Of a DNA stretch of 64,000 bases, positions 43,559 to 64,000 are shown piece by piece. The notes beneath the pieces are model-generated. The model ran no database searches. It saw only the letters and a list, made by a program, of their open reading frames with translations, and was not told the origin of the DNA. Every line of letters begins with the position of its first letter. Positions within the stretch are counted from its first letter, which is position 1. Origin of the DNA: Pseudomonas synxantha (GTDB lineage: Bacteria; Pseudomonadota; Gammaproteobacteria; Pseudomonadales; Pseudomonadaceae); assembly GCF_900105675.1 (NCBI RefSeq), contig NZ_LT629786.1:2790001-2854000 (forward strand), in the 5' to 3' direction. A program made the position numbers and the translations under genes.

Positions 43559-43577
43559 GCAATTGATAATTATTAGC
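43559..43577. promoter_or_regulatory. Fur box between the PchR-like and TonB receptor genes
   Basis: GCAATTGATAATTATTAGC agrees with the 19-base consensus GATAATGATAATCATTATC at 14 positions. It is 86 bases before the receptor ATG and 60 bases from the regulator ATG. Confidence 0.7.
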
Positions 43578-43663
43578 ATTTGGCGCGCCGCAAACGCTGC
43601 GCCAAACCGCCGCTGCCCCTGTGCACCGCGCGCCGATTAGCATTCATCAGTCAAGGTCCCATC

Positions 43664-46434: not shown

Positions 46435-48582
46435 TCAGAACTGATAGCTATACCCCACCCCCGCCGAACGCCCGCGCCCCGGCATCCCGGTCAGCACCGT
46501 GTCGGTGGAGTACGCGCCATACAGGTCATACCGCGCATCCAGCAAATTATCGCCCCACAAATAAACCTCCGACCCCCCACTCTCCAGCCCAAGGTGCAAG
46601 TCCAACTTGGCGTAACCCTTGAGGTCATAGTGGTTCTGCGGATCAGCCGGGCGGTTTTTCTGCACGCGGTAGTTGAGCAAGGTGTTCAAGCGCGGCGCAG
46701 GCAAGCCCAGCAGTTCACCCAGGGGTTTGTTCCAGGCCACGCTGAAGTTGCCACTCCACAACGGCACATCCGGCACGCGGCTGCCCTTGGCCACATCACC
46801 ACCGGAAACACCTGGCGCATCGGAGGTGACCACCGCGTTGGTGTAGCTGATGGCGCTGCCCAGGGTCAGCTCATCGGTGACGTGCCAGGTGCTCGACAAT
46901 TCGGCGCCTTTGCTGCGGGTGTCGGCATTCACGGCGCTGACGGCCATGCTCTTGAAGTCATACCCCAGCAGGTGGTCATCCTGCACACGAGTGATAAACA
47001 ACGCGCCTTCCAGGCTCAACGCACCGCCTTGGCTTTCATGCTTGAAGCCGACTTCGGCGGAGTTCACCTTGGCCGCCTTGTAGGGCTCGCTGTCCTTGAC
47101 CGAGGTGGCGTAATCGTTGAACCCGGCCGATTTGTAGCCCCGCGACAACACCGCATACAGGTTGGTCTGCGGCGTCCACGCATAGCTCAGGGCCACGCGA
47201 CCGGTGTTGTAGTCGTCCTGCAAGCGACGGCTGTCGCTGACCAGGTTGCCGCCACTGCTGTAGTCGGCGCCGTAGGTCTTGCGATCCCAGGTGTGACGCA
47301 GGCCGGTGGTGAGTTTCCAGTCCTCGGCAATCGGGAAGGTTACTTCGCCGTAGGCGGCATAGCTGTTGGTGGTGAAATCGCGCATTTGCCGGGCGCCGTT
47401 GGTGAAGTTGGTGGAATCGAAGCTGCGTTCGGAACGGGACAGGTTCACCCCGCTCACCCAGAACACCTCGGCATCCGCCAGCGAGCCCAGGCGCAGGTCC
47501 TGGCTCCAGACCCGCTCATGGGCCGCGTCTTCGACCAGGTACTCGAACGGTTGGCCGTACAACGCCTGGGTGATGTTGCGATCATAGCCCTTGATCGCCT
47601 TGAAGTCGGTGCTGGTGTAGGCGCTGATCGAGGTGATCCGGGCCTGGGCCAGGTCGTGGTTGAGCTCGAAGGAATAACGCTCGTTGGTCTTCTTGTTGCT
47701 ATCGAAGGTGCCGGGGGTGTAGTCGAGGCTGGGACGATTGCCGAATGGCCGCAGGATCTCCGAGCCGGCGTAGTGGTCGGCGCGCTGGCGCTCGACGGTC
47801 AGCAGGCCGGTAGTGTCTTCGTCGTTGTCCCACAGCAGGCTGCCGCGCAGGGCCAGGTCACGTGGCTTGGTCAGGGGGTCGCCGTCCTGTTGGTCGTCGA
47901 CCCAGTTATCAAAGCCGCTGCGCCGCACCGCAATACGCCCGGCCAGGGACTCGGTCAGCGGCCCGCCCACTGCGCCTTCGGTCATGAACTGGCCCTGGTT
48001 GCCCGCTTCGCCGCGCACATATCCTTCCAGCTCGCGGGTAGGCTTACGGGTGGTGACATTGATCGCCCCCGCTTCGCTGTTACGCCCGAACAGCGTGCCT
48101 TGGGGGCCCTTGAGCACTTCCATTTGCTGCACGTCGAGGGTGGCCATGGCCGCGTTGCGCACCGACATCGGCACCCCGTCCACGTTCAGCACCACCGAGC
48201 CGTCGTCCATGCTCATCTGGTTCAGCGAGCCAACCCCACGGATACGCACGTTGGCGTCGTTGGCGCCGCCCCAGGAGTTCACCTCCACCCCCGGCGTGGT
48301 GCGCAGGGCATCTTCCAGGGTGCGCAGGCGGCGGGTCTCCAGAGTTTGCCCATCGAGCACCGAAAGGCCGAACGGAATGTCCTTGGCACTCTCCTGATTC
48401 AACCGCGCACTCACCGTCACCGGTGCCAGCTCGATGGTCTTGGCGCTGGCGGCCGGTTGATGGTCAGCGGCATAGGCCGTACACATCTGGCTGGACAAGG
48501 TCAGCGCCATGGCTTGGGTCAATACGTTGGCCCGCCAACCGAGAGGACGACGCAGCGGCTGGATAGACAGTTCAGATGACAT
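46435..48582 (-). CDS. TonB-dependent siderophore receptor 2 (paralogue of receptor 1)
   Basis: 715 residues: signal peptide (VLTQAMALTLSSQMCTAYAA), TonB-box-like IELAPVTVSA, plug domain (IPFGLSVLDGQTLETRRLRTLEDAL, VRIRGVG, QMEVLKGPQGTLFGRNSEAG), 22-strand barrel and GVGYSYQF end. Strongly similar along its length to receptor 1, including LRTTPGVEVNSWGG versus LRNTSGVSVNSSGG. GGAG lies eight bases before the ATG. It is the last gene of a minus-strand operon with the ABC transporter and 33 bases after it, so it is tied to metallophore handling. Confidence 0.9.
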   Translation of the reverse strand: MSSELSIQPLRRPLGWRANVLTQAMALTLSSQMCTAYAADHQPAASAKTIELAPVTVSARLNQESAKDIPFGLSVLDGQTLETRRLRTLEDALRTTPGVEVNSWGGANDANVRIRGVGSLNQMSMDDGSVVLNVDGVPMSVRNAAMATLDVQQMEVLKGPQGTLFGRNSEAGAINVTTRKPTRELEGYVRGEAGNQGQFMTEGAVGGPLTESLAGRIAVRRSGFDNWVDDQQDGDPLTKPRDLALRGSLLWDNDEDTTGLLTVERQRADHYAGSEILRPFGNRPSLDYTPGTFDSNKKTNERYSFELNHDLAQARITSISAYTSTDFKAIKGYDRNITQALYGQPFEYLVEDAAHERVWSQDLRLGSLADAEVFWVSGVNLSRSERSFDSTNFTNGARQMRDFTTNSYAAYGEVTFPIAEDWKLTTGLRHTWDRKTYGADYSSGGNLVSDSRRLQDDYNTGRVALSYAWTPQTNLYAVLSRGYKSAGFNDYATSVKDSEPYKAAKVNSAEVGFKHESQGGALSLEGALFITRVQDDHLLGYDFKSMAVSAVNADTRSKGAELSSTWHVTDELTLGSAISYTNAVVTSDAPGVSGGDVAKGSRVPDVPLWSGNFSVAWNKPLGELLGLPAPRLNTLLNYRVQKNRPADPQNHYDLKGYAKLDLHLGLESGGSEVYLWGDNLLDARYDLYGAYSTDTVLTGMPGRGRSAGVGYSYQF

Positions 48583-48615: not shown

Positions 48616-51600
48616 TCATTGCGCAGGCCCCCAGCGCTTGAGCGCGGCGGCAATCGCGGGATCGGAGGGCGCGCCCAGCAGGCCCTGGATCGCGGTTGGC
48701 CATCCCTGGCCGTGACGGACATCGGCGGTCATCGCCGTGAGATGTTCGGGGGTTTGCGCGGCGACCCAGTCGAGGCTGACCAGCGCGGCATAGCTGGCGG
48801 CCCAGCCTTGTTCGCGGGCATCGGCCAGGGTGCCGACGGGCTCGCCGTCGCTGGCCAGGGCGCGGGTCAGGTCGTCGGCCATCAGCTTGACCAGCGTGGC
48901 CCGGGCGTCAGCGCCATCGGCATCCTCCACACACAGCAGGCCCAGCGCCCCCGCCACACCCTGGCTCAGCCACAGGTAACCGGGGGCCTGGCGCAGGTCG
49001 CTGGCGTCGGTCAACATGCGGCGGGCGAGCAGTTCGGCAATATGGGCGCGGCGTGTCCAGCGTCCGACGCCTGCTGGCCCCACGTCCCAATTGGGCGACT
49101 GGCTGAGCAGCAGATGGCCGTGGCTCAAGCGGCTGGCGCCCATGCTTGCAGGCCATTGGCTCAGGTGTTCGACGCTGGAGCGGCCGCCCAGACGTCGCGC
49201 CACACAGGCGCTCATCAGGTCCAGGTCTTCCTGCACTTCACGGGCGGTGTGCTCACGGCTGGCATCCTTGCGAAGCGGCGTGGCGTAGGCGAAGTCCAGT
49301 GGGCCCAGGCTGCTGCCGGTCAAGACCTGGCCATCGACCTCAAGCTGCCATTGCCAGTGTCCGGCCGGTGCGACCGCATCCACCGCCACCTCAGCCCCCC
49401 TTGGCAACCGGGGCACCGCGACCGGCAAGCCAGCTTCGCTGCGCAGGGCCGGCGCACGCAACAGTCGCTCGCTGTCCAGCCCCAGGCGCGGCACCACGCG
49501 GCGCGCTTCCAGCCACACACCCTGCGGCCCAAGCCAGAACGCTTCGCCTTCGGCAGGCCAGCCGTCAGCACTCAGCGTCCAGTTCAACACCACCTGGCAA
49601 CCACTCGCCGCGCAACCCTGCAAAGGCACACGCAGATGCGCGGTGGCTTGTTCAAACGCGACCGGTCGCCCCATCACGCTGACCGCCGTCAACTGCAGGC
49701 CCGGCGGTAACTCAGCGTCCAGGTGGGCAGCGACCACCCCATCCAACGTCCACTGGCCCAAGACCTGCCGCGCCGCCGAATCAACCTGCATCTGCAACTG
49801 CCCACCGGCCACCTGCCAGGCGCTCGCCCCGGGCAGCCAGCGCTGTTCCCAGTCGGCACGTTTGGCACGTTGCTCGGCGACGGACTGGTAATCGCCCTGC
49901 TCCACCAGATGCCGCTGCAAGAGCACGCCGCTGGCGAGCAAGCCGACGATGCCCAAGGCCAGCAACGCACCGGGCAAACCGAGCAAACCGCGGCGCACAT
50001 CGCCCAACCGACGACGCTCCGGCCCACGGGGCAAGGCCAGTGCCGCCACCGCAAGCAACACCAGGCAACCGGCGAGTTTCCAGCTGGCCAAGGTGGCCAG
50101 AAACCCCAGCCATGGCGCCCAGCCGGTCAGCAACGACACCCCCACATGCGCAGGGATCGCCATGGCATAGGGCGGGTAACTCACCAGCCCCAACTCATGG
50201 TTGAGCACCAGGAAAAACGTCAGCAGCATCGAAGTGGCGTAAGCCAGCCCGGAGCGGCGAACCAGCGCATGCACCAGCACCGTGAGCATCGCCAGTTCCA
50301 CCAGCGGCGGCGCGAATACCAGCGCCTGATAGACCAGCACAAAACCCGGCGCCAGGCTGTCGGGCGCGGCCATCGCACTGATCAGCAAGCTGGCCAGGCC
50401 CGGCACCAACGCCAGGGCCAGTGTCGCCATCAACACACATGCCACCCGCCCCAACAGGCGCAGCCACACCGGGGCCGGGGTCGCCTGCAACATGGCGCCC
50501 AAGCCTTCGACGTCATCGCGCCGGCACACCAGCCCGACCAGCGCCGCGACGATAAAGGCGATCACCAGGAACAACGCGCTCGACAGCAATGGCAGGGTCA
50601 GATCCGCCCGAGGCACCATCGGCCCACGGGCATGCCACACCCCGTGGACAAAACCACTGAGCACGCCCATCACCAACAGTAATCCGAGGGCCACCCACCA
50701 GATGCGCCGGGCAAACAGCTGGCGTACCTGCCAACGCGCCTCGCACCACAGGGCTCGCGGCCACCGGCTGCGCACCAGCGGGCCAGGCAAGGTCACGCCG
50801 CTCGCCAGCAGCATCGGCGGCTCGGCCAACACCGCCCCGCTACGCCTGCCCATCAAACCCTGGCGCGTGGTGCGGGCCAATACGACAGCCAGCAACAGCA
50901 GCGGCACTGCGCACCACAACACACGGTTAAGCCAGAACCCCGGGGTCAGGGCCAGCAGCGATTGGGACTTTTGCGCGGCGCTCCAGGTCTCCACCTGGGC
51001 CTGGGCAAAGGTGAACAATGACGGGTCCAGGCTGGCGGCCAGCAGCGGGTTGATATGCCCGCCCTTGAGCACCACTACGGCAAACATCCACAACAGCATC
51101 AACACCGTCGCCAACCCGAACGGCGCCGCCAGGCCACGGCTGCGCAGCGCCAGCAGGTAATACAACGCACCGATGCCGGTGCTCACTGGCAACAGCAAGG
51201 CGACCCAGGCAAACCCCAGGGCCGACCACATCGGCGCACCGATACTGGCGGCCGGCACCCAGCCGAGCCAGCCCAGTACCGGGCTGACCAGGAAGCCGAC
51301 GATCAGCGAACTGGCGAGCAAGCCGCCCACCAGCGCCGCGCCGATAAAACGTCCCCACAGCAGCGCGGGCAGCGACAGCGGTAAAGCCAGCAACACCTCT
51401 TCCAACTGCGCCTTGCGATCGCGCAAGGCCGGTTGCGCGAACACCCAGGCCCAGGCGAAAAACAGAAAGAACATGCACCCGCAGGACATCAGGTAGATCA
51501 GGCTCGGCGCGTTGCGCGCAATGTCGCTGGCGCCCATTTTCTGCACGTAGTCGGCATTCGCCAGGGACATCAGTAAATAACCGGTCAGGCCCAGGAACAC

Positions 51601-51678
51601 CAGTAACGGAATACCGCTGCGCAGCCCGGCGCGGACTTCCACCCAGGCCTCGCGCATCAACAGAGCAAAAGTATTCAT
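48616..51678 (-). CDS. ABC-2 type permease fused to a degenerate M1 aminopeptidase-like domain
   Basis: 1020 residues. Two permease halves (about 1-290 and 315-600, roughly 12-14 membrane segments) are followed by a large soluble region (about 620-1020) related to ABC-associated M1 peptidases. The zinc site HExxH is replaced by AHIAELLARR near residue 878, and the downstream WLxEG by WLSQG, so the ligands are lost and peptidase activity is unlikely. ATG overlaps the ATPase stop (ATGA). It probably forms an inner-membrane exporter for the metallophore, with the pseudo-peptidase as a periplasmic binding module. Confidence 0.85.
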   Translation of the reverse strand: MNTFALLMREAWVEVRAGLRSGIPLLVFLGLTGYLLMSLANADYVQKMGASDIARNAPSLIYLMSCGCMFFLFFAWAWVFAQPALRDRKAQLEEVLLALPLSLPALLWGRFIGAALVGGLLASSLIVGFLVSPVLGWLGWVPAASIGAPMWSALGFAWVALLLPVSTGIGALYYLLALRSRGLAAPFGLATVLMLLWMFAVVVLKGGHINPLLAASLDPSLFTFAQAQVETWSAAQKSQSLLALTPGFWLNRVLWCAVPLLLLAVVLARTTRQGLMGRRSGAVLAEPPMLLASGVTLPGPLVRSRWPRALWCEARWQVRQLFARRIWWVALGLLLVMGVLSGFVHGVWHARGPMVPRADLTLPLLSSALFLVIAFIVAALVGLVCRRDDVEGLGAMLQATPAPVWLRLLGRVACVLMATLALALVPGLASLLISAMAAPDSLAPGFVLVYQALVFAPPLVELAMLTVLVHALVRRSGLAYATSMLLTFFLVLNHELGLVSYPPYAMAIPAHVGVSLLTGWAPWLGFLATLASWKLAGCLVLLAVAALALPRGPERRRLGDVRRGLLGLPGALLALGIVGLLASGVLLQRHLVEQGDYQSVAEQRAKRADWEQRWLPGASAWQVAGGQLQMQVDSAARQVLGQWTLDGVVAAHLDAELPPGLQLTAVSVMGRPVAFEQATAHLRVPLQGCAASGCQVVLNWTLSADGWPAEGEAFWLGPQGVWLEARRVVPRLGLDSERLLRAPALRSEAGLPVAVPRLPRGAEVAVDAVAPAGHWQWQLEVDGQVLTGSSLGPLDFAYATPLRKDASREHTAREVQEDLDLMSACVARRLGGRSSVEHLSQWPASMGASRLSHGHLLLSQSPNWDVGPAGVGRWTRRAHIAELLARRMLTDASDLRQAPGYLWLSQGVAGALGLLCVEDADGADARATLVKLMADDLTRALASDGEPVGTLADAREQGWAASYAALVSLDWVAAQTPEHLTAMTADVRHGQGWPTAIQGLLGAPSDPAIAAALKRWGPAQ

Positions 51679-52559
51679 GCCTCGAGCGCCTCACCGGCCT
51701 GGGCCAGCGCCAGGTAATAGATGTCTTCCAGGCGCGGCGCGTGAGGGGTGAAGCGCGGATCGGCCGGGCGTTCGCCGTGCACGATCACGCGGCTACCGGC
51801 GGGGCTGGCGGCTACGTGCAAAGCGGCGGGCAGTGGCTCGCCACGGCCGAACGACGCCTCCCACAGGCGACCCTGCTCAGCGCCAAGCAAATCCGCCGGG
51901 CGGCCTTCGACAATAATTCGCCCACCGGCCAGCACCGCCAGGCGGCTGCACAGGTTCTCGACGTCTTCGACAATATGGGTCGACAGCAACACGATGGACT
52001 CGGCCGCCACATCCGCCAGTACCCGGTGAAAGCGGTTGCGCTCGGCCGGATCAAGGCCCGCGGTGGGCTCATCGACAATCAGCAAACGCGGCGAGCCGAT
52101 CAGGGCCATGGCGATGCCGAAGCGGCGCAACATGCCCCCCGAATACGTGGCGAGCGCCCGATGCGCGGCGTCTTGCAGGTTGACCTTGGCCAGCAGGCCC
52201 TCCACTTCTTCACGACGCTGGCGGGTGTCGGTACGCCCCTTGAGCCAGGCAAACCGATCAAGCAGATCCCGCGCACTCACCCCAGGGTACGCCCCCAGTT
52301 GCTGTGGCAGGTAACCCAGGCGACGGCGCAGATGCTCGGCATCGGCCAACACATCCACGCCATCCAGGTGAATGCTGCCGGCGTCCGGTTGCTGCAAGGT
52401 CGCCAGGGTGCGCATCAGGCTGCTCTTGCCTGCGCCATTGGGGCCAAGCAAGCCATACATGCCCGGCCCTACGCTCAGGTCCACACCGCGCAGCGCCTCG
52501 ACACCATTGTTGTAGCGCTTGCACAAGCCGCGCACCTGTAAACCCGAATCGACTGACAT
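51675..52559 (-). CDS. ABC transporter ATPase
   Basis: 294 residues of the drug/polysaccharide-export (ABC-2) type. Walker A GPNGAGKSS near 42, Q-loop LPQQLG, signature YSGGMLRRFGIAMAL, Walker B LLIVDEPTAGLD, H-loop STHIVED. ATG at 52559 has GGAG six bases upstream; an ATG at 52571 and a TTG at 52589 are weaker starts. It powers the fused permease encoded next, and is divergent from the NRPS gene with a Fur box between. Confidence 0.9.
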   Translation of the reverse strand: MSVDSGLQVRGLCKRYNNGVEALRGVDLSVGPGMYGLLGPNGAGKSSLMRTLATLQQPDAGSIHLDGVDVLADAEHLRRRLGYLPQQLGAYPGVSARDLLDRFAWLKGRTDTRQRREEVEGLLAKVNLQDAAHRALATYSGGMLRRFGIAMALIGSPRLLIVDEPTAGLDPAERNRFHRVLADVAAESIVLLSTHIVEDVENLCSRLAVLAGGRIIVEGRPADLLGAEQGRLWEASFGRGEPLPAALHVAASPAGSRVIVHGERPADPRFTPHAPRLEDIYYLALAQAGEALEA

Positions 52560-52759
52560 CCACAACTCCATCAAGGACGAGCCCTGCAAAAGGGCGGCGA
52601 GCGACGGTAGTCAAGGCCGGCAACGCGGTTCTACCCGATTCAAGTCATTTTCCAACCGTATCCCGCTCAGTGACCGGCGTTATCTCCCACCACCGCCGCA
52701 GCCTGACCCGCTTCGGGCAAACGGATACGGGGCAAAAACGATTCGATTGGGGTAGTCGC

Positions 52760-52778
52760 CACAATGAGAATGACTAGC
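52760..52778. promoter_or_regulatory. Fur box in the divergent ABC exporter / NRPS promoter
   Basis: CACAATGAGAATGACTAGC agrees with the 19-base Fur consensus at 13 positions. It lies 81 bases before the NRPS ATG and about 200 bases from the ATPase ATG, and could control both directions. Confidence 0.65.
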
Positions 52779-52858
52779 ATCTGCTTCCACACAATGACCT
52801 GCCCCCAGCGCCTGGGCCAACCCCGGTCCGGGCCCTAGCGATGAGAAGACGTTGAGCC

Positions 52859-55800
52859 ATGGCCACTCCCAGCACCTCAACCGCAACCCTGCTGCGCCGT
52901 TCCCTGTCCGAAGCCCTGGGGCAGCCCGCCGAACAGATTCCCCTGGAGGCCAACCTGATTGAATGGGGGCTGGATTCAGTCACCCTGATCCGTCTCGCCG
53001 GCCAATGGCGGCGCCAGGGCCTGGCCGCGCGTTTCGCCGAGCTGGTAGCCGACCCACGCCTGTGCACGTGGCTGACGCTGCTTGATACCGCCCCCGTCGC
53101 CCCGGCCCCCGCCAACCACAGTGCGGACGACGGCCTGCCCTTCGAACTGGCGCCCATGCAACACGCCTACTGGATCGGCCGCGCCCCTGGCCAAGCCCTG
53201 GGCGGTGTGGCCGCGCACTTCTATAACGAATTCGACGGCCACGGCGTTGACCCAAGCCGCCTGGAAGCCGCGGTGCAGACCTTGCTGGCCCGCCATCCGA
53301 TGTTGCGGGCGCAGTTTCTCGACGATGGCCGCCAACAGATCCTGCCCCACAGCCCATGGCCGGGGCTGAAGGTGCATGACCTGCGCCAGGCCGATTCCGA
53401 ACAGCTGCAACAGCAACTGCAGGCCTTGCGCGCCGAGTTGTCCCATCGCCAGTTGGCGGTGGAACACGGTCAGGTGCTGGACATCCAGCTATCGCTGTTG
53501 CCCCAGGGCACACGCCTGCACCTGAACCTCGACATGCTCGCCGCCGACGCCCTGAGCCTGCGCACGCTGCTCGGTGATCTGGTGCAGTTGTACCGCCAAC
53601 AGCCCCTGCCCGCGCTGGACTACAGCTTCCCGCGCTACCTGGCCGACCTGCGCGAGGAGCAGGCCAGTCCTGAGCACCGTGAGCGCCATCGCCAAGCCCG
53701 CGACTACTGGTTGCAGCGCCTGGACGCATTGCCGGGTGCCCCACGCCTGCCGATCAAGATGCAGGGCGATGAAGGCCAGGTGCGCCGCCGTCACCACTGG
53801 CTGTCGCCGTCCCTGCGCCAGGCGTTCGAGCGTCATGCCCGCGAGCACGCCCTCACCCCGGCCATGGCCCTGGCAGCGGTGTTTTGCGAGGCCCTCGGCG
53901 CCTGGTGCGAGACGCCCGAACTACTGCTCAACCTGCCATTGTTCAACCGCACGCCGTTGCATGCCGATGTCGAACGCCTGGTCGGTGACTTCACCTCGTC
54001 GATCCTGCTGGCCTGGGATGGCCGTGTGTCCGGCTCCTTTGCCGCCCGAGCCACAGCGTTGCAACGTCGCTTCCATGGTGACGCCGCCCACAGCGCGTTT
54101 TCCGGGCTCGAGGTGTTGCGCGAACTGTCGCGCCATCGCGGTGAGCAAGTGCTGGCGCCGGTGGTGTACACCAGCGCCCTGGGCCTGGGGGAGTTGTTCG
54201 CCGAGGGTGTGCAGGAGTGTTTCGGCCAGCCGGCGTGGATCATTTCCCAGGGCCCGCAGGTGTGGCTGGACGCCCAGGTCACCGAACTGGACGGCGGCAT
54301 CCTGGTCAACCTCGATGCCCGTGAAGGGCTGTTTGCCGAGGGTGTACTGGACGGGCTGTTCGACGCCTACACCGGCCTGTTGCAGCGCCTGTGCCATGAC
54401 GCCACGGCCTGGGATCAGCCGGTACCGGCGCTGATTCCCGCCAGTCAGCTTGGCGTACGCAGTGCCGCCCAGGGCCAGCCCGCCGCGTTGCCGGTCGAGC
54501 GCCTGCACGAAGGTTTCTTCACCCAAGCGCAGTTGGCCCCGACCCTGCCGGCATTGCTGTACGGCAATCAGGCCATCACCTATGGCGAGTTAGCCAAGCG
54601 TGCACTGGGCGTCGCGGCCTATCTCGAAAGCCAAGGCGTGAAGCGCGGTGACGTGGTGGCGCTGCAATTACCCAAAGGCCCCGAGCAGGTGATCGCTGTG
54701 CTGGGCATCCTGGCGTGCAGCGCCACCTACCTGCCCATCGGCGTCGACCAGCCTGCCGCACGTTGCCGCAAGATCTGCGAGGGCGCCGGTGCGCGCTTGC
54801 TGCTCACCCAGTTGCCGGACGCTGCTAGCCCATTGCAAGCACCCCGCCGCGGTGCAATCAGCGACCTGGCCTACATCCTTTACACCTCCGGCTCCACCGG
54901 TGAGCCCAAGGGCGTGGAAATCAGCCATCTCGCCGCCGCCAACACCCTGGAGGACCTGCAACGACGCTTGCAGCTCAACCGCGATGATCGGGTCCTGGCA
55001 CTCTCGGCGCTGGAATTCGACCTGTCGGTGTTCGACCTGTTTGCCCCGCTGGCCTGCGGTGCGGCGGTGATCCTGATCGAGCCCGACGCCCAGCGCGACG
55101 CGCCACGCTGGCGCGAACTGGCGGTGCAGCACCGCGCCAGCGTGCTCAATTGCGTGCCGGCGCTGCTCGACATGCTGCTCGGCTGCGCCGACGCGCCGCT
55201 GCCCTTGCGCGCCGTCTTGCTCGGCGGTGACAAGGTCGCGCCGCAGCTGGCGCCGCGCCTGTGGGCCCAAGCCCCCGGTTGCCGCTTCATGGCCCTGGGC
55301 GGTGCAACGGAAGCGGCGATTCACTCAACGCTGTTCGAAGTCGTGCCCGGCCAGGCGCTGCACTGGCATTGCCTGCCCTATGGCAAGCCACTGGATAACG
55401 TCAGCCTGCGCGTCGTCGACCCGCATGGCCATGACTGCCCGGACTGGGTGGCCGGCGAACTGTGGATCGGCGGTGCCGGGGTGGCCGAGGGCTACCGGGG
55501 CGATGCGCTGCGCAGTGCCGAACGCTTTGTGCACTACCAGGGCCTGCGCTGGTACCGCACCGGCGACAGTGCGCGCTACCACCCCGACGGCACGGTGGAG
55601 TTCCTTGGGCGGACCGACTTCCAACTCAAGCTGCACGGCTACCGTATCGAAGCCGGTGAAGTGGAACACGCGCTGCTGGCCTGCCCCGGCGTCGAGCAGG
55701 CAGTGGCGCTGCTCGCCGGCCAGCACCTGGCGGCGGTGGTGCGCCTGGCGAATGGCCCAGCGCAACCCACCCCACTGGCGTTCCCGCGCCTGGCCGAGCA

Positions 55801-58800
55801 TCTGCCGGCCTATATGATTCCCAGCCTGATCCTGGGCTGCGCGCAATGGCCTCTGACGACCAATGGCAAGGTGGATCGCAAGGTCCTCAACGGCTGGCTG
55901 GCGGAACACAGCGGCGCCGCCCCGGACCAGCTGTCACCGCCCTGTGGCCCCATCGAGCAACAGGTTGCCCACGCCTGGCAGCAGTTGCTCGGCTGTGGTG
56001 AAGTCTGTCGTGAGCACAGCTTCTTCGCCTTGGGTGGCGACTCCCTGAGCGCCACGCGCCTGGTGCGCCTGCTGGCCGAGCAAGGCCTGGGCGGCGCACG
56101 CATCGCCCGGGTGTTTGCCCAGCCGGTGCTGGCGCAGTTTTGCGAAGGCCTGCATCAACAGGCCCATATCCAGCCACCACGCACCCTGGTGCCGGACCTC
56201 GCCCAGCGCCATGCGCCCTTCCCCATCACCGAGGTGCAGCAGGCCTACTGGCTGGGCCGCGACCCAAGCCTGGTGCTGGGCGGTGTGAGTTGCCACTTCT
56301 ACCGCGAATACGACGTCGAGGACCTCGACCTGCCACGCCTGCAACACGCACTCGGGCGCCTGATCGAACGCCACGAAATGCTGCGCGCCGTGTTCGATCA
56401 AGCGGGCCAGGCGCGCATCCTCCCCGTGGTGCCGACCTTCGTGATCGGCCAAGGCTACGCCTGCATCGAGGACCTGCGCGAACACTGTGCCCACCGCGTG
56501 TTCGATCCTGCCCACTGGCCGCTGTTCGATGTGCAGGCAGTGACCCAGGGCCGGCATACGCGACTGGCGATCAGCCTGGACAACCTGATCCTCGACGCCC
56601 TGAGCATCCTGCGTTTCTACGCCGAACTCGACGCGCTGTATCGCGAGCCGACGCTGACCCTGGCGCCGCTGGAACTGTCGTTTCGCGACTATCAGCTGCA
56701 GGCCGGCGTGGAACCTGCCGAACGGCTCGCCGCGCAACGTTTCTGGCAGGCACGTCTGCCCCAATTGCCGCCACACCCGCAACTGCCCCTGGCGACCGAT
56801 CCTGCCAGCCTGGGCCGACCACGCTTCGAACGCCTGCAAGGGCAGGTCAAGGCGGGGGCGTGGCAAGCGATCCTGGCCAACGCCCAACAGCATGGCCTGA
56901 CCGCTTCGGCAGTGCTGCTCTGTGCGTTTGCCGAAACCCTGGGCCGCTGGAGTGCGCGCCCGGACCTGAGCCTGAACCTCACGCTGTTCGATCGCCGCCC
57001 GGTGCACCCGCAGATCGATCAGATCATGGGCGATTTCACCTCCCTGACCCTGCTCGGTTATGTGCCCGTGGCAGGCGAACGCTGGATCGACCGTGCACGG
57101 CGCACCCAGCAGCATCTGGGCGAGGCCCTGGAGCACCGCTGCATTGGTTCCGTCAGCCTGTTGCGCCAACTGGCGAGGGACAGTGGCGAACAACAGGCGA
57201 GCATGCCGGTGGTATTTACCAGCGCCCTGGGCGTGCCGGATGGCACTGCCGCGCCGGTGGACGGCCCATTCGCCCGGCAGGTATTCGGCCTGACCCAGAC
57301 CCCACAGGTGTGGCTCGACCATCAGGTGGTGGAAGCCGACGGCGGCATCGCCCTGAACTGGGACCGGGTGGTCGGCCTGTTCCCCGACGGCCTCGTCGAA
57401 GCGATGTTCGACGCCTACCTGGGCAGCCTCCACTGGCTCGCCGAACACCCCTGGGACAGCGCCCCGCCGGATCTGCTGCCAGTGGCCCAGGCCCAACTGC
57501 GCGCCCGCTTGAATGCCCCCGGCCCCGGCGTACCGGGTGACCCGACCTTGCACCAGGGCTTCTTCCAACACGCACAGCAAGCCCCGCAACGCCCGGCGTT
57601 GTTGTGGGGTGAGCATGGCCGCCTGAGTTATGGCGAACTCGCCGAGCGTGCGCTGCGCATCGCCCGCAGCCTGATGGACGCGGGCGTGACAACCGGGGAT
57701 CTGGTGGCAGTGTCCCTGGCCAAGGGACCACAACAGATCGCCAGTGTGCTGGGGGTGCTGGCAGCGGGCGCGGCCTACCTGCCGGTGGGTGTGGACCAAC
57801 CGCTACAGCGTTGCCAGCGCATCCTGCAACAGGCCGGCGTCAGCCTTATCCTCGCCGAGCACGACCCGCAATTACCCGGGGTCAAGCACCTCAAGCCGTC
57901 CCAGGCGCAAAGCGTCGAACCGCTGCACGCGCCGTTGCCCGTGAGCGCCGGCCAGTTGGCCTATGTGATCTATACCTCGGGCTCCACCGGCCAGCCCAAG
58001 GGCGTGGAAATCACCCATCGCGCCGCGATGAACACCGTGGCCGAGATCAACCGCGGCTACGGCGTCGACGCCTCGGACCGTGGCCTGGCGCTGTCGGCCC
58101 TGGACTTCGACCTGTCGGTGTATGACCTGTTCGGCCTGCTCTCGGTGGGCGGCGCCCTGGTGTTGATTGATGAAGACCAGCGCCGCGACGCCCGCGCCTG
58201 GCTCAAGGCCCTGCAACATCACAGCGTAAGCCTGTGGAACAGCGTGCCGGCGTTGCTCGACATGCTGCTCGAAGCCAACGCGGTGGAGCAACAACCCCTG
58301 GCACTGAAGGTGGCGCTGCTGTCAGGCGACTGGATCGGCCTCGACCTGCCGCAACGCCTGCGGCAACAGGCCCCGGACTGCCGCTTTATCGCCCTCGGTG
58401 GCGCGACCGAAGCGGCGATCTGGTCCAACCATTTCGAGGTACGGCAGCCGCTGCCGGGCTGGCGTTCGATCCCCTATGGCGTGCCACTGGCGAACCAGGC
58501 TTACCGCGTGGTGGACGCCCTTGGCCGCGACTGCCCGGACTGGGTCACGGGGGAGTTGTGGATCGGCGGTGACGGCGTCGCCCGTGGCTACCGCCATGCG
58601 CCGCAATTGAATGCCGAGCGCTTCGTCAACGGCTGGTACCGCACCGGCGACCTGGGCCGCTATCGCCCCGACGGCTTGCTGGAATTCCTCGGCCGCGCTG
58701 ACACCCAGGTGAAGCTGCGCGGCCATCGCATCGAGCTGGGCGAAGTCGAAGCGGCCCTGGCCGCTCACCCCTGCGTGAACCAGGCCGTGGCGTTGGTCGC

Positions 58801-59269
58801 GGACCAGCGCTTGCTCGCCGCCGTCGCTGCCAGCACCTGCGCCGAAGTGCTGGCCCTGCACCTGGAGCAGTGCCTGCCCGCGTATATGCGCCCGGAACAG
58901 ATCCTGGTGCTCGATCGCCTGCCCTTGAGCAGCAACGGCAAGGTCGATCGCCGCGCCTTGCTCGCGCCGCTGGCCGCCGCTGCCCATTCACGCCCCACGC
59001 TGGATGAAACGCCGTTGAGCACCACTGAACAGCTGGTCGCCGAGCTGTGGCAGCAGTTGCTCAACGTGCCCTGCGTGTCGCGCCACGACAACTTCTTCCG
59101 CCTCGGCGGCGACAGCCTGCTGGCCACACGTTTTCTCGAAATGCTGCGCAGCCGCATCGGCGTGGAACTGCCCATGGGCCAGTTGTTCGGCGCCGCCAGC
59201 CTGCTCGAAGTGGCGCAAACCCTCGAGCGCCAGCCCGCCCCGCACCCCATTGAAGAGGGCGTCATCTGA
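52859..59269 (+). CDS. Thiazoline-forming NRPS 1: ArCP-Cy-A-PCP-Cy-A-PCP
   Basis: 2136 residues. An N-terminal aryl carrier domain (pantetheine Ser40 in WGLDSVTLI) would carry salicylate or a similar acid activated by a separate ligase. Cyclization domain 1 has DMLAAD near 224. Adenylation domain 1 (YTSGSTGEPKG near 674) gives specificity residues D-L-F-N-L-G-L-I. Carrier Ser is near 1062. Cyclization domain 2 has DNLILD near 1240. Adenylation domain 2 (near 1704) gives D-L-Y-N-L-S-L-I, the classic cysteine code. The last carrier Ser is near 2086 and the C-terminus ends HPIEEGVI. Domains were assigned from motifs. The weak ribosome site before 52859 is the only plausible start. Confidence 0.93.
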   Translation: MATPSTSTATLLRRSLSEALGQPAEQIPLEANLIEWGLDSVTLIRLAGQWRRQGLAARFAELVADPRLCTWLTLLDTAPVAPAPANHSADDGLPFELAPMQHAYWIGRAPGQALGGVAAHFYNEFDGHGVDPSRLEAAVQTLLARHPMLRAQFLDDGRQQILPHSPWPGLKVHDLRQADSEQLQQQLQALRAELSHRQLAVEHGQVLDIQLSLLPQGTRLHLNLDMLAADALSLRTLLGDLVQLYRQQPLPALDYSFPRYLADLREEQASPEHRERHRQARDYWLQRLDALPGAPRLPIKMQGDEGQVRRRHHWLSPSLRQAFERHAREHALTPAMALAAVFCEALGAWCETPELLLNLPLFNRTPLHADVERLVGDFTSSILLAWDGRVSGSFAARATALQRRFHGDAAHSAFSGLEVLRELSRHRGEQVLAPVVYTSALGLGELFAEGVQECFGQPAWIISQGPQVWLDAQVTELDGGILVNLDAREGLFAEGVLDGLFDAYTGLLQRLCHDATAWDQPVPALIPASQLGVRSAAQGQPAALPVERLHEGFFTQAQLAPTLPALLYGNQAITYGELAKRALGVAAYLESQGVKRGDVVALQLPKGPEQVIAVLGILACSATYLPIGVDQPAARCRKICEGAGARLLLTQLPDAASPLQAPRRGAISDLAYILYTSGSTGEPKGVEISHLAAANTLEDLQRRLQLNRDDRVLALSALEFDLSVFDLFAPLACGAAVILIEPDAQRDAPRWRELAVQHRASVLNCVPALLDMLLGCADAPLPLRAVLLGGDKVAPQLAPRLWAQAPGCRFMALGGATEAAIHSTLFEVVPGQALHWHCLPYGKPLDNVSLRVVDPHGHDCPDWVAGELWIGGAGVAEGYRGDALRSAERFVHYQGLRWYRTGDSARYHPDGTVEFLGRTDFQLKLHGYRIEAGEVEHALLACPGVEQAVALLAGQHLAAVVRLANGPAQPTPLAFPRLAEHLPAYMIPSLILGCAQWPLTTNGKVDRKVLNGWLAEHSGAAPDQLSPPCGPIEQQVAHAWQQLLGCGEVCREHSFFALGGDSLSATRLVRLLAEQGLGGARIARVFAQPVLAQFCEGLHQQAHIQPPRTLVPDLAQRHAPFPITEVQQAYWLGRDPSLVLGGVSCHFYREYDVEDLDLPRLQHALGRLIERHEMLRAVFDQAGQARILPVVPTFVIGQGYACIEDLREHCAHRVFDPAHWPLFDVQAVTQGRHTRLAISLDNLILDALSILRFYAELDALYREPTLTLAPLELSFRDYQLQAGVEPAERLAAQRFWQARLPQLPPHPQLPLATDPASLGRPRFERLQGQVKAGAWQAILANAQQHGLTASAVLLCAFAETLGRWSARPDLSLNLTLFDRRPVHPQIDQIMGDFTSLTLLGYVPVAGERWIDRARRTQQHLGEALEHRCIGSVSLLRQLARDSGEQQASMPVVFTSALGVPDGTAAPVDGPFARQVFGLTQTPQVWLDHQVVEADGGIALNWDRVVGLFPDGLVEAMFDAYLGSLHWLAEHPWDSAPPDLLPVAQAQLRARLNAPGPGVPGDPTLHQGFFQHAQQAPQRPALLWGEHGRLSYGELAERALRIARSLMDAGVTTGDLVAVSLAKGPQQIASVLGVLAAGAAYLPVGVDQPLQRCQRILQQAGVSLILAEHDPQLPGVKHLKPSQAQSVEPLHAPLPVSAGQLAYVIYTSGSTGQPKGVEITHRAAMNTVAEINRGYGVDASDRGLALSALDFDLSVYDLFGLLSVGGALVLIDEDQRRDARAWLKALQHHSVSLWNSVPALLDMLLEANAVEQQPLALKVALLSGDWIGLDLPQRLRQQAPDCRFIALGGATEAAIWSNHFEVRQPLPGWRSIPYGVPLANQAYRVVDALGRDCPDWVTGELWIGGDGVARGYRHAPQLNAERFVNGWYRTGDLGRYRPDGLLEFLGRADTQVKLRGHRIELGEVEAALAAHPCVNQAVALVADQRLLAAVAASTCAEVLALHLEQCLPAYMRPEQILVLDRLPLSSNGKVDRRALLAPLAAAAHSRPTLDETPLSTTEQLVAELWQQLLNVPCVSRHDNFFRLGGDSLLATRFLEMLRSRIGVELPMGQLFGAASLLEVAQTLERQPAPHPIEEGVI

Positions 59270-59307
59270 TGCCCGCACAACCTCCCCTTATCCCAGGAGC
59301 TGTCCCC

Positions 59308-62300
59308 ATGCCCGCCGCCAAACTGTTAAGCGAACTCAAGTCCCTGGGCGTCGAACTCTGGCCCCAGGATGGCCAACTCAAATTCCGTGCCCCCCAAGGC
59401 CTGCTGGACGCCGAACGCCTGGCGCAATTGCGCGAGCACAAGCAGCAGATCCTGCACCTGCTGCAAACCCAGGAGCGGCCCGAGGTGGTGGCCGACCCCT
59501 TGCAACGTCACGCACCTTTCCCGCTCACCGATGTGCAGAATGCCTACCTGCTCGGCCGCCAGTCGTCGTTCGGCTACGGTAATGTGGCGTGCCACGGTTA
59601 CCTCGAACTGAGCTGGCCGAGCCTCGACCCGCAGCAGGTGGAACAGGCGTGGAACCGCCTGATCGCCCGCCACGACATGTTGCGCGCGGTGATTGCCAGC
59701 GAAGGCTCCCAACGCGTGCTGGCCGAGGTCGCCCATTACCCGCTGGCTGTCGCGGACTTGCGCGGCGCCACTGGCGAGCAGCACCAGCATGCCGTACAAC
59801 AGATTCGCCAGGCCATGGAGCAGAAGCTCTACCCCACCGAGACCTGGCCGCTGTTCGAATTGCGCCTGAGCCGCAGCGACAGCGGCGACACCCTGCACTT
59901 TTCCATGGACTCGTTGATCGCCGACTGGGCCAGCGCGCAACTGCTGTTCAATGAGCTGGAGCAGTTGCTGCACGATCCCCAGGCCAGCTTGCCGCACCTG
60001 GACATCACCTTCCGCGACTACCTGCTGGCCGAACGCGGCCTGCTCGAAGGCAGCCGCCATCAGCGTGACCGTGACTACTGGCTGGCGCGTCTCGATGAAC
60101 TGCCCCCGGCTCCGCAACTGCCGGCGCCCCTGAGCGGCGAAGACACCACAGTGCCACGCTTCCAACGCCACTCGGCGCACCTCGATACGCAACCATGGGC
60201 CGCCCTGAAAAGAGCCGCCAGCGCCCTCGGCCTCACTCCCTCCATCGTGGTGCTCAGCGCCTATGCCGGCACCTTGCAACGCTGGAGCCAGCAACCTTCC
60301 TTCAGCCTCAACCTCACGCTGCTCAACCGTTTACCGCTGCACCCACACGTCAACCAGCTGGTGGGGGATTTCACCTCGGTCAGCCTGTTGCAGGTCAATG
60401 ATCCCCAGGGCCAGGATTTCACTGCCCAGGCACGGCAACTGGGCAACCAATTGTTCGCCGACCTGGAGCACCGGCTGTTTTCCGGCATTCAAGTGATGCG
60501 CGAAATCGGCCGCCGTCGCGGGCGTGAGGCGGCCGCCATGCCGGTGGTGTTCACCAGTGCCATAGGCCTGGCGATTGAACCGCAGGCCGCCAGCCAGCGC
60601 CGGGTAGGCTACGGCATTACCCAGACCCCGCAGGTGACCCTTGACTGCCAGGTGATGGACGACGCGAACGGCTTGCACATCCACTGGGACGTGCGCCAAG
60701 GCGTGTTCCCTGACGGTTTGGTCGAGGACATGCAGCAGGCATTCGTTGCCCAATTGCGCTTGCTGGCCTTCGACCCGGCCACCTGGGACGCGCCCATGCA
60801 AGTGCCGCTACCGGCCTGGCAACAGCGTGAACGCCTGGCCGCCAACGCCACCGCCGCGCCGCTGCCCACCGGCCGCCTGCATGACGGCCTGTTGGCCATG
60901 GCCTGGGAACGGCCACAGGCCCTGGCGGTGGTCGACGCCCACGGCAGCCTGACCTACGCAGCCCTGATGGAGCGTGCCCTGGCAGTCGCCGCAGCCCTGG
61001 GCGCCGCCGGTTGCCGCGCCCAGGAACCGGTGGCGATCCTGATGCCCAAGGGCCGCGACCAAGTGGTGGCGGCCTACGGCGTGCTGCTGGCCGGCGCCGC
61101 CTACCTGCCGCTGGACAGCAACGCCCCGGCCGCCCGCCGCGACCGCGTACTGCACAGTGCCAAGGTGCGGCATGTGCTCGGCCACTCCCAGGCCCTGCCC
61201 GACACGCCGTTACCCGAGGGTGTGCACTGGCATTCGGTGGACCAACTGGCAGCCGCCACGCCGGACTTGCCGGCACAGGACGCCGGCCCCGACGACCTCG
61301 CCTATGTGATCTACACCTCCGGCTCCACCGGCGAGCCCAAAGGCGTGATGATCAGCCACCGCGCCGCCCTCAATACCGTACAGGACATCAACCGGCGCTT
61401 TGCGGTCAACGCCGCTGACCGCGTGCTGGGCCTGGCGCAATTGAGTTTCGACTTATCGGTGTATGACCTGTTCGGCCCCCTCGCCGTGGGCGGCACCCTG
61501 GTGCTGCCGGACCCGGCACGGGGCGCCGACCCGTCGCACTGGGCCGAGCTGATACAGCGCCATCAGGTCACGCTGTGGAACTCGGTGCCGGCGCAGTTGC
61601 ACATGCTGGCCCACTACCTGCAGGCCGAGCCACGGCCCCTGGACAGCCTGCGCCTGGCGCTGTTGTCGGGTGACTGGATACCGCTGAACCTGCCGCCGCA
61701 ACTGCAAGCGCTGCTGCCGGGCCTGGCCCTGGTGGCCCTGGGCGGTGCCACCGAAGCCTCGATCTGGTCGAACCTGCACCCCATCGGCGCGATTGAACCG
61801 GCATGGCGTAGCATTCCCTACGGCCTGCCGCTGGCCAACCAGGGCTTGCGCGTGCTGGACAGCCAGTGGCGCGATGCGCCGACCTGGGTGCCGGGCGACC
61901 TGTACATCACCGGGGTCGGCCTGGCCCAGGGTTACCTCGGCGACCCGGCGTTGAGTGAGGCGCGCTTCTTCGCTCACCCCCTCGACGGCCAGCGCCTGTA
62001 TCGCACCGGTGACCGTGGCCGCTACCTGCCGGGGGGTGAGCTGGAGTTTCTCGGCCGTGACGACGGCCAGGTCAAGATCCGTGGGCACCGCGTGGAGCTG
62101 GGCGAAATCGACGCCGCACTGCTCGCCACCCCAGGCGTGGACAGCGCCGTCAGCCTGCTCAGCGGCGAGCTGCTGGCCTTTGTCACGGCGGCGCGTGTCG
62201 AACCCGAGCCGCTGCCGGGCACACCACTGCTGACGGCGGTGCAGCGTTATGCCGACAGCCAGGTCGGCAACTTTGACGCGCAGCAGGTACGCGACTATCA

Positions 62301-64000
62301 GGCTGACCTCAACGCCGCCGCCTTGAGTTCGATGCTGGATGTCATGCTCAAGGCCCAGTTGTTCAGCGGCGCGATGGCCGAGCCGGATGCAGCTGCAATC
62401 CTCAGTGCCTTGCAGGTGCAACCGCGCCATCACTGGTTGGTGCGGCGTTGGTTGCTGGCCTTGTGTGACGCGGGCCTGTTGCAGCGCGAACAATCCCGCT
62501 ATCGCCTGCTGCATGGCGAGCCAACCCCGGCGTTGGCCTGGGGCCGGGTGGAACAGGCGGTGGCGTGCGGGCTGTGCAGCCAGGCGCTGCTTGACTACCA
62601 GCTCAACCATGTAGCGCAACTGCCGCAACTGCTGCGCGGCGAGGTCAACCCGTTCGATCTGTTGTTCCCCCAGGGCCAGCAAGACCTGGCGTTGCAGCTG
62701 TATGGCGCGGATGCGGTATCGCGCTACAACAACCACAGCATCGCCGCGCTGATCAACCGGCTTGCCACCCACCATGACGGCGATGGCCCGCTACGCATCC
62801 TTGAAATCGGTGCGGGCACCGGGGCCACCAGCACACCGGTGATCAGCCTGCTCGACGGCCTGAACGTGGATTACCTGTTCACTGACATGACCGCGTTTTT
62901 CCTGCCGGCGGCCAAGCAGCGCTTTGCCGATCACGCCTGGGTGCGCTACGGCGTGCTGGACATTGACCAGGATATTCGCCCCCAGGGCCTGGCCAGCAAC
63001 AGCGTGGATATCGTGCTGTGCGCGGGCATGCTCAACAGCGTCAAGGACATCGACAACGCCCTCGGCCAGATCACCGAATTGCTCAGCCCCGGTGGCTGGC
63101 TGGTGTTCAGCGAACCGACCGGCGAATGGCCGCCGATCCTGCTGACCCAAGGCTTTATGATGACCCCGGCGGGCGACGACCACGACGTGGGCCGCAGCGA
63201 TTTGCGCGCTGCGGATATCTGGCAGGCACGGGTCCAGGCATTCGGCGGCGAATGCCTGCCGGCCCTGCCCCACGCCGACCACCCGCTGGCCGCCCTCGGC
63301 ATGCAGGTGTTCGCCGCACGCTTCAAGGCCGGGCTGCAGCGCTTGAGCGTCGACAGCCTGCGCCGCGCCCTGGCGCAACGCCTGCCGGACTACATGCTGC
63401 CGGCGCACCTGCAAGTGCTCGACCGTCTGCCCCTGACCGCCAACGGCAAGGTCGACCGCAAGACCCTGGCCAACTGGCGCCCAACCATCGATGCCCAGGC
63501 CGGCAGTAACGAAGCGGTGCCCAGTGACCCGCTCACCGCCGAGCTGTGCAGGGTGTGGGCCGAAGCCCTGGGCCTTTCGCAGATCGGCGCCGACGACAAT
63601 TTCTACGAGAAAGGCGCCGATTCGCTGATCCTCGCCCGCGTTGCCGGCCAGCTGCGTGAACAACTGCCCCAGGCGCACAGCCTGAGCTACGACACCCTGC
63701 TGCGGCAGATGCTCAACGAGCCGACTGTCAGCGCCCTGGCGCGCCTGCTCAACCACGATGAAAGCCCCCCCACCGCCGCAGCGCCTGACCAGTCGCAGCG
63801 CGCCACCCACAGCAACGCCCTGGTAGTGCCGTTCGGCGGTGGCGAGGTCGGCCCGGTGCGAGTGATGTTCCATGCCGCCCTGGGCACCCTGGATTATTTC
63901 CAGCACCTGGGCCGTGCGCTCGCCGCCCAGCAGGCCGGGCCGGTGATCGGTTTTGCGGTGGCAGACACCGCGCAGTACCTGGCCCTGGAACCCAAGCGCC
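59308..64000 (+). CDS. Thiazoline-forming NRPS 2: docking-Cy-A(MT)-PCP-TE (3' end cut by window edge)
   Basis: About 1564 residues visible. A TubC-type N-terminal docking domain (1-55), a cyclization domain (DSLIAD near 201), an adenylation domain (YTSGSTGEPKG near 668; code D-L-Y-N-L-S-L-I, cysteine) interrupted by a methyltransferase-like insert with SAM motif LEIGAGTGATS near 1165, then A10 (NGKVDRK near 1377), carrier Ser near 1440 and the start of a thioesterase (about 1500 onward). Order resembles PchF. Start: ATG 59308 has AGGAG nine bases upstream; an in-frame ATG at 59269 overlaps the previous TGA and would add 13 residues. Confidence 0.9.
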   Translation, partial: MPAAKLLSELKSLGVELWPQDGQLKFRAPQGLLDAERLAQLREHKQQILHLLQTQERPEVVADPLQRHAPFPLTDVQNAYLLGRQSSFGYGNVACHGYLELSWPSLDPQQVEQAWNRLIARHDMLRAVIASEGSQRVLAEVAHYPLAVADLRGATGEQHQHAVQQIRQAMEQKLYPTETWPLFELRLSRSDSGDTLHFSMDSLIADWASAQLLFNELEQLLHDPQASLPHLDITFRDYLLAERGLLEGSRHQRDRDYWLARLDELPPAPQLPAPLSGEDTTVPRFQRHSAHLDTQPWAALKRAASALGLTPSIVVLSAYAGTLQRWSQQPSFSLNLTLLNRLPLHPHVNQLVGDFTSVSLLQVNDPQGQDFTAQARQLGNQLFADLEHRLFSGIQVMREIGRRRGREAAAMPVVFTSAIGLAIEPQAASQRRVGYGITQTPQVTLDCQVMDDANGLHIHWDVRQGVFPDGLVEDMQQAFVAQLRLLAFDPATWDAPMQVPLPAWQQRERLAANATAAPLPTGRLHDGLLAMAWERPQALAVVDAHGSLTYAALMERALAVAAALGAAGCRAQEPVAILMPKGRDQVVAAYGVLLAGAAYLPLDSNAPAARRDRVLHSAKVRHVLGHSQALPDTPLPEGVHWHSVDQLAAATPDLPAQDAGPDDLAYVIYTSGSTGEPKGVMISHRAALNTVQDINRRFAVNAADRVLGLAQLSFDLSVYDLFGPLAVGGTLVLPDPARGADPSHWAELIQRHQVTLWNSVPAQLHMLAHYLQAEPRPLDSLRLALLSGDWIPLNLPPQLQALLPGLALVALGGATEASIWSNLHPIGAIEPAWRSIPYGLPLANQGLRVLDSQWRDAPTWVPGDLYITGVGLAQGYLGDPALSEARFFAHPLDGQRLYRTGDRGRYLPGGELEFLGRDDGQVKIRGHRVELGEIDAALLATPGVDSAVSLLSGELLAFVTAARVEPEPLPGTPLLTAVQRYADSQVGNFDAQQVRDYQADLNAAALSSMLDVMLKAQLFSGAMAEPDAAAILSALQVQPRHHWLVRRWLLALCDAGLLQREQSRYRLLHGEPTPALAWGRVEQAVACGLCSQALLDYQLNHVAQLPQLLRGEVNPFDLLFPQGQQDLALQLYGADAVSRYNNHSIAALINRLATHHDGDGPLRILEIGAGTGATSTPVISLLDGLNVDYLFTDMTAFFLPAAKQRFADHAWVRYGVLDIDQDIRPQGLASNSVDIVLCAGMLNSVKDIDNALGQITELLSPGGWLVFSEPTGEWPPILLTQGFMMTPAGDDHDVGRSDLRAADIWQARVQAFGGECLPALPHADHPLAALGMQVFAARFKAGLQRLSVDSLRRALAQRLPDYMLPAHLQVLDRLPLTANGKVDRKTLANWRPTIDAQAGSNEAVPSDPLTAELCRVWAEALGLSQIGADDNFYEKGADSLILARVAGQLREQLPQAHSLSYDTLLRQMLNEPTVSALARLLNHDESPPTAAAPDQSQRATHSNALVVPFGGGEVGPVRVMFHAALGTLDYFQHLGRALAAQQAGPVIGFAVADTAQYLALEPKR

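Follow-up and report, generated by a model that had tools for sequence, protein, structure and literature searches.

The mupirochelin cluster of Pseudomonas sp. NCIMB 10586 consists of 19 genes (PMC10080011, Fig. 1 legend and text). As described in that account, mupirochelin is iron-repressed, MchR acts as activator and MchQ takes the compound up; it binds iron, gallium and zinc, the tree presented covers 114 cluster-bearing strains, and the type strain of P. thivervalensis is reported as a producer. Mupirochelin (C22H28N4O4S3, m/z 509.1345) is unstable and resolves into five isomer peaks, and PMC10080011 predicts a four-residue acid made with one module working twice, a mismatch with the assembly line that its authors call surprising. 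In the same account, uptake is assigned to MchQ from mutants, the function of the second receptor, MchS, is left open with a distinct ligand suggested, and mchS is iron-repressed and rises upon mupirochelin uptake. Zinc lowers the expression of mchB and mchQ and leaves mchR unaffected, the text being inconsistent on the response of mchS to zinc (PMC10080011). The term Zur occurs nowhere in the main text of that paper (0 occurrences).

Sorangibactin, the product of the srb cluster of Sorangiineae strain MSr11367, was solved by NMR and feeding as a salicyl-oxazole with two N-methyl-thiazolidines and a homocysteine gamma-thiolactone (PMC10127202). According to the description given there, the line consists of two NRPSs of seven and five domains, its thioesterase (TE) has an essential cysteine, and release with homocysteine or methionine was proposed from feeding and TE mutants. 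Deletion of the P450 gene srbH abolished sorangibactin A, a labile isomer pair, and left the oxazoline sorangibactin C (C22H28N4O4S3, m/z 509.1332); sorangibactin B gave more than five isomers. PMC10127202 also points out homologous clusters in Pseudomonas. Coelibactin of Streptomyces coelicolor, a predicted zincophore (PMC3430247), has a structure that was never established and, per PMC10127202, no VOC gene; as in the mch cluster, a P450, a saccharopine-dehydrogenase-like protein and a Cys-type TE are described for it (PMC10127202, PMC10080011). In the P. aeruginosa PA2911-PA2914/pyochelin system, a second, Zur-controlled receptor has likewise been proposed for an aryl thiazoline siderophore, the metal there being cobalt, as a pyochelin-cobalt complex, unlike the zinc considered here (PMC11481552). 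In the open-access literature examined, we found no paper covering both mupirochelin and sorangibactin, and neither a structure revision nor a zinc revision.

Gene content and order of the locus

The window, that is, the whole 64,000-nucleotide stretch of DNA analysed here, corresponds to positions 2790001-2854000 of a 6.84-Mb single-contig genome. It carries, in this order, mchR (-), mchS (+), mchQ, mchP and mchO (-), and mchA and mchB (+) (Table 1). Past its 3' edge, on the mchC-mchN side, follow a pair of half-size ABC transporters, a saccharopine-dehydrogenase-like protein, two methyltransferases and a P450; further along, a thiazolinyl imine reductase that scores 331 bits with TIGR01761 (cut-off 189), then a VOC protein, an aryl-AMP ligase and a type II thioesterase; and lastly a lyase of the chorismate-mutase type together with a chorismate-binding synthase. 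The full set comprises mchABCDEFGHIJKLMN, the divergent mchOPQ, mchS and mchR, with mchP placed by position. The tailoring set acting in trans (E, F, G, H, I and J) lies past the window edge and is matched in Sorangium cellulosum So0157-2 (locus L034). A 17.3-kb alignment on the mchB-to-mchN side gave 96% DNA identity to Pseudomonas khavaziana SWRI124 and P. libanensis DSM 17149, which places the window close to these two.

Table 1. Positions of the mch genes and candidate regulatory sites, numbered from the first letter of the window
Feature	Position	Strand	Basis
mchR, AraC-family regulator	42516..43499	-	Pfam HTH_18; gene order as in the cluster of PMC10080011
Fur-like sites, mchR/mchS gap	43559..43583		two overlapping 14/19 matches, Fur consensus
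mchS, second TonB-dependent receptor	43664..45784	+	TonB receptor domains; ATG at 43664
Zur-box-like palindrome TGTAATACTATAACA in mchS signal-peptide codons	43712..43726		published consensus GWWAYWNNNTWHCR; 16/16 mchS orthologues
mchQ, TonB-dependent receptor	46435..48582	-	TonB receptor domains; uptake receptor per mutants of PMC10080011
mchP, large membrane protein, putative MchO partner	48616..51678	-	low-confidence model, M1-peptidase-like C-terminus
mchO, ABC ATPase	51675..52589	-	ABC_tran; longest frame, true start perhaps internal
Fur-like sites, mchO/mchA gap	52760..52784		two overlapping 13/19 matches
mchA, ArCP-Cy-A1-PCP-Cy-A2-PCP, 2136 aa	52859..59269	+	domain scan, A codes
mchB, docking-Cy-A3(MT)-PCP-TE	59269..64000, ends 761 bases beyond window	+	Cys-type TE motif GYCLGG
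mchC-mchN	3' of mchB, past window	same as mchB	loci L006, L020

Judged by its genes, the locus is the mupirochelin cluster gene for gene, a coelibactin-type system: all 19 genes, their identical order, the two divergent operons, the AraC-type activator and the two receptors are common to both (PMC10080011, Fig. 1 legend and text). The original prediction had described a product not recognised from Pseudomonas, a claim that falls because gene set and order are those of the published cluster. Its picture of a complete metallophore system with regulator, receptors and transporters was borne out, as was its comparison with coelibactin, and the sequence past 64 kb supplied the aryl-AMP ligase, a two-gene salicylate route, the imine reductase and the TE end. 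The two expected receptors are present (MchS and MchQ, 56% identical), and the regulator, announced as PchR-like, is a member of the AraC family, the level at which our comparison places it. The system itself has been known since 2023; the readings of product and metal given below appear to be new.

The mch and srb clusters share the seven/five-domain NRPS pair, the Cys-type TE, the aryl ligase, the saccharopine-dehydrogenase-like protein, two methyltransferases, the P450, the imine reductase and the VOC protein. They differ in that srb, as described in PMC10127202, has a single Irp9-type salicylate synthase and a LysR regulator, whereas mch has a two-gene salicylate route, an AraC regulator and TonB receptors.

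At the P. thivervalensis DSM 13194 locus (L028 and G231), MchB is 87% and MchA 84% identical to the window proteins, and MchQ 89% over 321 aa. This strain, which we take to be the type strain of the species, has the same A1 code, ending in NLGLIH, and the TE cysteine and is without mchH, the P450 gene.

MchP gave zero matches in a Pfam search, and its structure model has a mean pLDDT of 45.1. The C-terminal part of the model resembles M1 aminopeptidases (best Foldseek E 4.9e-07, low TM-scores), fold matches that we take as a hint only because the model is poor, and an HExxH motif was not found in the MchP sequence; MchP is perhaps an ABC permease carrying a dead peptidase domain. Upstream, at a distance of 52-81 kb from where the window starts, the genome has more NRPS frames, of 4974, 3447 and 1072 aa (G000:C1:2709328-2738403).

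Architecture of the assembly line

MchA carries its ArCP serine in a GLDSV motif at residue 37, followed by two Cy, two A and two PCP domains, the Cy motifs being intact (D225MLAAD and D1241NLILD). MchB, whose TE crosses the window edge and whose gene ends at genome position 2854761, consists of a TubC docking domain, a Cy domain (motif D214SLIAD), an A domain into which a methyltransferase is inserted, a PCP and the TE. This agrees with the predicted ArCP plus three Cy-A-PCP modules with intact DxxxxD motifs, and also with a PKS-free line: a PKS domain was detected neither in MchA or MchB nor in nine downstream proteins or the TE, lyase and isochorismate-synthase frames (chosen frames, about 15 kb past the edge). 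Of the predicted end in a methyltransferase and a TE, the TE stands; the methyltransferase is embedded in the third A domain. A pyochelin-type line was set aside, since three Cy-A modules are present here and pyochelin has two cysteine modules only, and so was a yersiniabactin-type line, which has a PKS module between rings.

A-domain codes were extracted by alignment, on the basis of code positions and A8/A10 motifs. The cysteine code is DLYNLSLIW, and both A2 and A3 carry it; A1 reads DLFNLGLIH. The A1 code is identical at 8 of 9 residues to that of P0305 from Pendulispora rubella (DLYNLGLIH), a species that is presumably that of sorangibactin, strain MSr11367. Among the 120 MchA homologues listed, all 18 that are 64% or more identical and 2131-2164 residues long (P0202-P0217, P0221 and P0251) have a code ending in NLGLIH. 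A1 is predicted to activate serine, and A2 and A3 cysteine.

The nucleophile in the GYCLGG motif of the MchB TE is a cysteine. In the best 120 of 1,155 MchB homologues, the nucleophile is Cys in 113 and Ser in 7, the first 98 being all Cys.

Related lines were seen elsewhere. In another Pseudomonas genome, a 3277-aa frame (G003:C1:3511996-3521022) holds three modules 43-45% like that of MchB, a further three-module line. Ten actinobacterial loci (L065, L067, L075, L077-L079, L081, L085, L086 and L089) encode MchE, MchI and half ABC transporters, with a P450 in nine; read mostly as two-module lines, they apparently make a related, shorter product family.

Mass and structure of the product

We enumerated 36 colinear products, combining Ser, Thr or Cys, 0-2 reductions and 0-3 methyls, in acid and homocysteine-thiolactone forms. 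None of the acids among the 36 combinations fits m/z 509.1345, the heaviest three-ring acid reaching 440.11, whereas two homocysteine thiolactones do: serine with two methyls and two reductions, and threonine with one methyl and two reductions. These two are indistinguishable by mass. The former, with serine, two cysteines and a homocysteine thiolactone, has the composition of sorangibactin C. Taken together, the TE, the formula and the homology suggest that mupirochelin is a colinear homocysteine thiolactone, unlike the published iterative acid.

The formula C22H28N4O4S3 fits the published iterative structure equally well. The two named MS/MS fragments, to which formulas were assigned in this analysis, have the same formulas in both structures (calculated 233.0413 and 306.1271); the values reported in PMC10080011 are 233.0403 and 306.1239, the latter 10 ppm off. 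The Fig. 10 legend of that paper gives the zinc complex as 570.24; the value calculated for [M-H+64Zn]+ is 571.05, about 0.8 higher.

A candidate methyltransferase for module 2

MchG is 36% identical to the methyltransferase insert of MchB over 997-1393. To relate the two, methyltransferases were counted at 68 named loci encoding MchE. At 20 of them the module-2 A domain is uninterrupted and a stand-alone MchG is present, the fetched stretch holding only the last part of MchA in 15 of these; with two-module lines set apart, every measurable locus with an uninterrupted module 2 carries MchG. Thirteen loci have an insert of 365-484 residues in the module-2 A domain, ten without MchG and three with it (L039, L066 and L069), and in these three the MchB insert measures 88, 210 and 212 residues versus about 460. 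A further 25 loci are uninterrupted, lack MchG and were read as two-module lines, since an aryl-ligase-like part, one Cy and one A were seen in 20 of the 22 checked, three lying outside the check. The remaining 10 loci were not measurable.

This pattern is consistent with MchG being a detached A-domain insert that would methylate module 2 in trans, a role that argues for serine with two N-methyls over threonine with one. In four of the 13 insert-bearing loci (L039, L046, L051 and L061) the MchA-like frame is short and has one module, and two of these four, L051 and L061, break the pattern, their MchB being without insert and MchG also absent. A missing cis methyltransferase alone therefore does not bring MchG.

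Fur-like sites and a Zur-type site within mchS

Fur boxes had been predicted, and Fur-like sites scoring 14/19 and 13/19 against the Fur consensus do lie in the mchR/mchS and mchO/mchA gaps, respectively (Table 1). Another 14/19 match occurs in the window at 14262, and when the mchO/mchA gap was put through 500 simple shuffles, 3 of them reached a score of 13.

When the window was scanned with a Zur palindrome (score out of 20), a single outlier emerged, 17/20 at 43709, the next best being 13; a Zur site sought in the mchO/mchA gap was not found (best 11/20). With the mchS start placed at the ATG conserved across 16 orthologues, the site lies 48 nt inside the gene, and it fits the published Zur consensus GWWAYWNNNTWHCR cited in PMC10393844. 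Only one other match to GWWAYWNNNTWHCR occurs in the window, at 12186. The whole genome holds four sites within one mismatch of TGTTATANTATAACA, that of mchS included, and a control pattern gave 0. The second is upstream of the genes encoding a DksA-type zinc-finger protein and a cobW-family GTPase, and the third upstream of amidase, FolE2 and ABC transporter genes; dksA2 and folE2 are part of the Zur-regulated zinc-starvation cluster described for P. aeruginosa (PMC8531726). The fourth, at 4907889, between two long-membrane-protein genes, does not fit the published consensus. The genome encodes two FUR-family proteins, one of them beside a ZnuA gene and ABC genes, and the znuA/zur gap scores 9/14 to the palindrome yet matches the published consensus; the palindrome therefore misses weaker sites.

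Conservation of the site was assessed in 398 Pseudomonas-genus genomes, 17 of which gave matches at the set cut-off. Sixteen of the 17 hold mchS (one in pieces), and all 16 have the palindrome, at 13-14/14 in six and 12/14 in ten, with a next best score per locus of 9; the published consensus is matched in all 16 as well. The distance from the mchS ATG is 48 nt in fifteen orthologues, the sixteenth having 27 nt. Isoleucine in the box is encoded by ATA in 16/16, whereas past codon 40 of the same genes ATA accounts for 4 of 239 isoleucine codons, and upon synonymous re-encoding of the box residues the observed score was reached in 0-3 of 20,000 draws. The encoded residues vary (CNTIT, RNTIT, RYTIT, SYTIT and others), so it is the DNA and not the peptide that is kept. 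At 13 mchQ loci the palindrome score was at most 9, with zero consensus matches.

Pseudomonas genomes contain 3-9 sites at two mismatches, versus 0-5 for control patterns, and in G060 the control exceeds the real pattern (4 versus 3). Controls not always being rarer, a lone two-mismatch site proves nothing, and since ten of the 16 boxes stand at two mismatches, the case for zinc rests on position and conservation.

Further loci showed varied arrangements. G403 (L141) is without mchS, has mchQ in two frames and carries a 13/14, consensus-fitting site about 180 nt upstream of mchR. In L140 (G380), apparently a decaying cluster, mchR, mchS and mchQ are each in two or three frames and the Zur-type site is retained. 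The Pelosinus locus L051 has a 13/14 site. In G050, a non-Pseudomonas genome with a more distant cluster, the palindrome was not found on the cluster contig, and the cluster has one consensus match only, inside mchP.

The mchR start lies 213 nt from the box, on its opposite side, the box being within coding sequence; because of this position, mchR could be the target of Zur. The arrangement in G403 fits such an action, whereas the zinc-blind mchR of PMC10080011 does not. MchS would thus be a zinc-side receptor, or Zur would act on mchR. A zinc-side role of MchS is the simplest reading, because three things coincide: a Zur-type site, a compound that binds zinc, and mch genes that zinc represses.

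Discussion

The reading that we favour, with a probability of roughly 0.6, is a colinear salicyl-oxazoline with two N-methyl-thiazolidines, released as a homocysteine thiolactone and serving zinc as well as iron. In this scheme, MchN and MchM would make salicylate, which MchK would load onto the MchA ArCP; A1 would take serine and the other two A domains cysteine, ring closure would fall to the three Cy domains, and MchI would reduce the thiazolines. The two N-methyls would come from the methyltransferase embedded in A3 and from MchG in trans (perhaps with MchF), and the TE would release the chain using homocysteine or methionine, as proposed for sorangibactin. Uptake would proceed via MchQ, with MchS as the receptor in zinc shortage. 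Relative to the account of PMC10080011, this puts a colinear homocysteine thiolactone in place of the iterative acid and adds a Zur-box-like site.

The published structure would instead have A1 take threonine, the second module of MchA iterate and the TE hydrolyse the chain to a four-ring free acid. It draws on MS/MS modelling with a reported neutral loss of CO2, which fits a free acid and speaks against a thiolactone, and it has the identical elemental formula (PMC10080011). The iterative module that it needs has no counterpart in the homologous srb line, which is colinear (PMC10127202); it also needs N-methylation of an oxazoline, gives a hydrolytic role to a TE of the Cys type, proposed to add homocysteine in sorangibactin, and carries the mismatch that surprised its own authors, and we hold it to be unlikely, though a serious contender. 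The linear aryl tris-thiazol(in)e acid put forward in the original prediction, for which the three intact Cy domains speak, is hardly credible, because the A1 code is not that of cysteine and no such acid comes near the mass of the known product. More plausible than such an acid, if still improbable, is that mchH-bearing strains, the window strain included, end at the oxazole, sorangibactin A itself (m/z 507.119), as the phenotype of the srbH deletion (PMC10127202) and the mchH of the window strain would suggest. NCIMB 10586 carries mchH too, so a sorangibactin-like P450 would yield 507.119 in it, and yet the strain is reported at 509.13, and we found no ion at 507.119 in the account of mupirochelin in PMC10080011.

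As to the metal, the mchS palindrome might serve another regulator, such as MchR, or the protein alone. Its place in coding sequence, away from the promoter position usual for a Zur box, is in keeping with this, as are the iron repression of mchS and its induction by mupirochelin uptake (PMC10080011). Against it stand the rare-codon constraint and the consensus fit in every mchS orthologue, almost identical sites at two gene groups of the zinc-starvation type in the same genome, and the consensus site that G403 retains without mchS, so that we find a non-Zur function doubtful and a Zur operator the better candidate.

The joint proposal that mupirochelin is sorangibactin C or a close twin, that control is split between iron (Fur and MchQ) and zinc (a Zur operator at mchS), and that MchG is a trans methylase of module 2 stands, in our estimate, at even odds. 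If it is true, mupirochelin and sorangibactin C, published eleven days apart, would be one compound, and one molecule would be common to pseudomonads and myxobacteria. There would be a concrete candidate for the structure of mupirochelin and, by analogy, of coelibactin, and the presence of a second mch receptor would be explained. The receptor gene of the PA2911-PA2914 system is presumably separate from the genes for pyochelin. The recent proposal of a part for aryl-thiazoline siderophores in the zinc response would extend to the fluorescent pseudomonads. An operator in coding sequence, held by a rare codon across 16 genomes, would be unusual.
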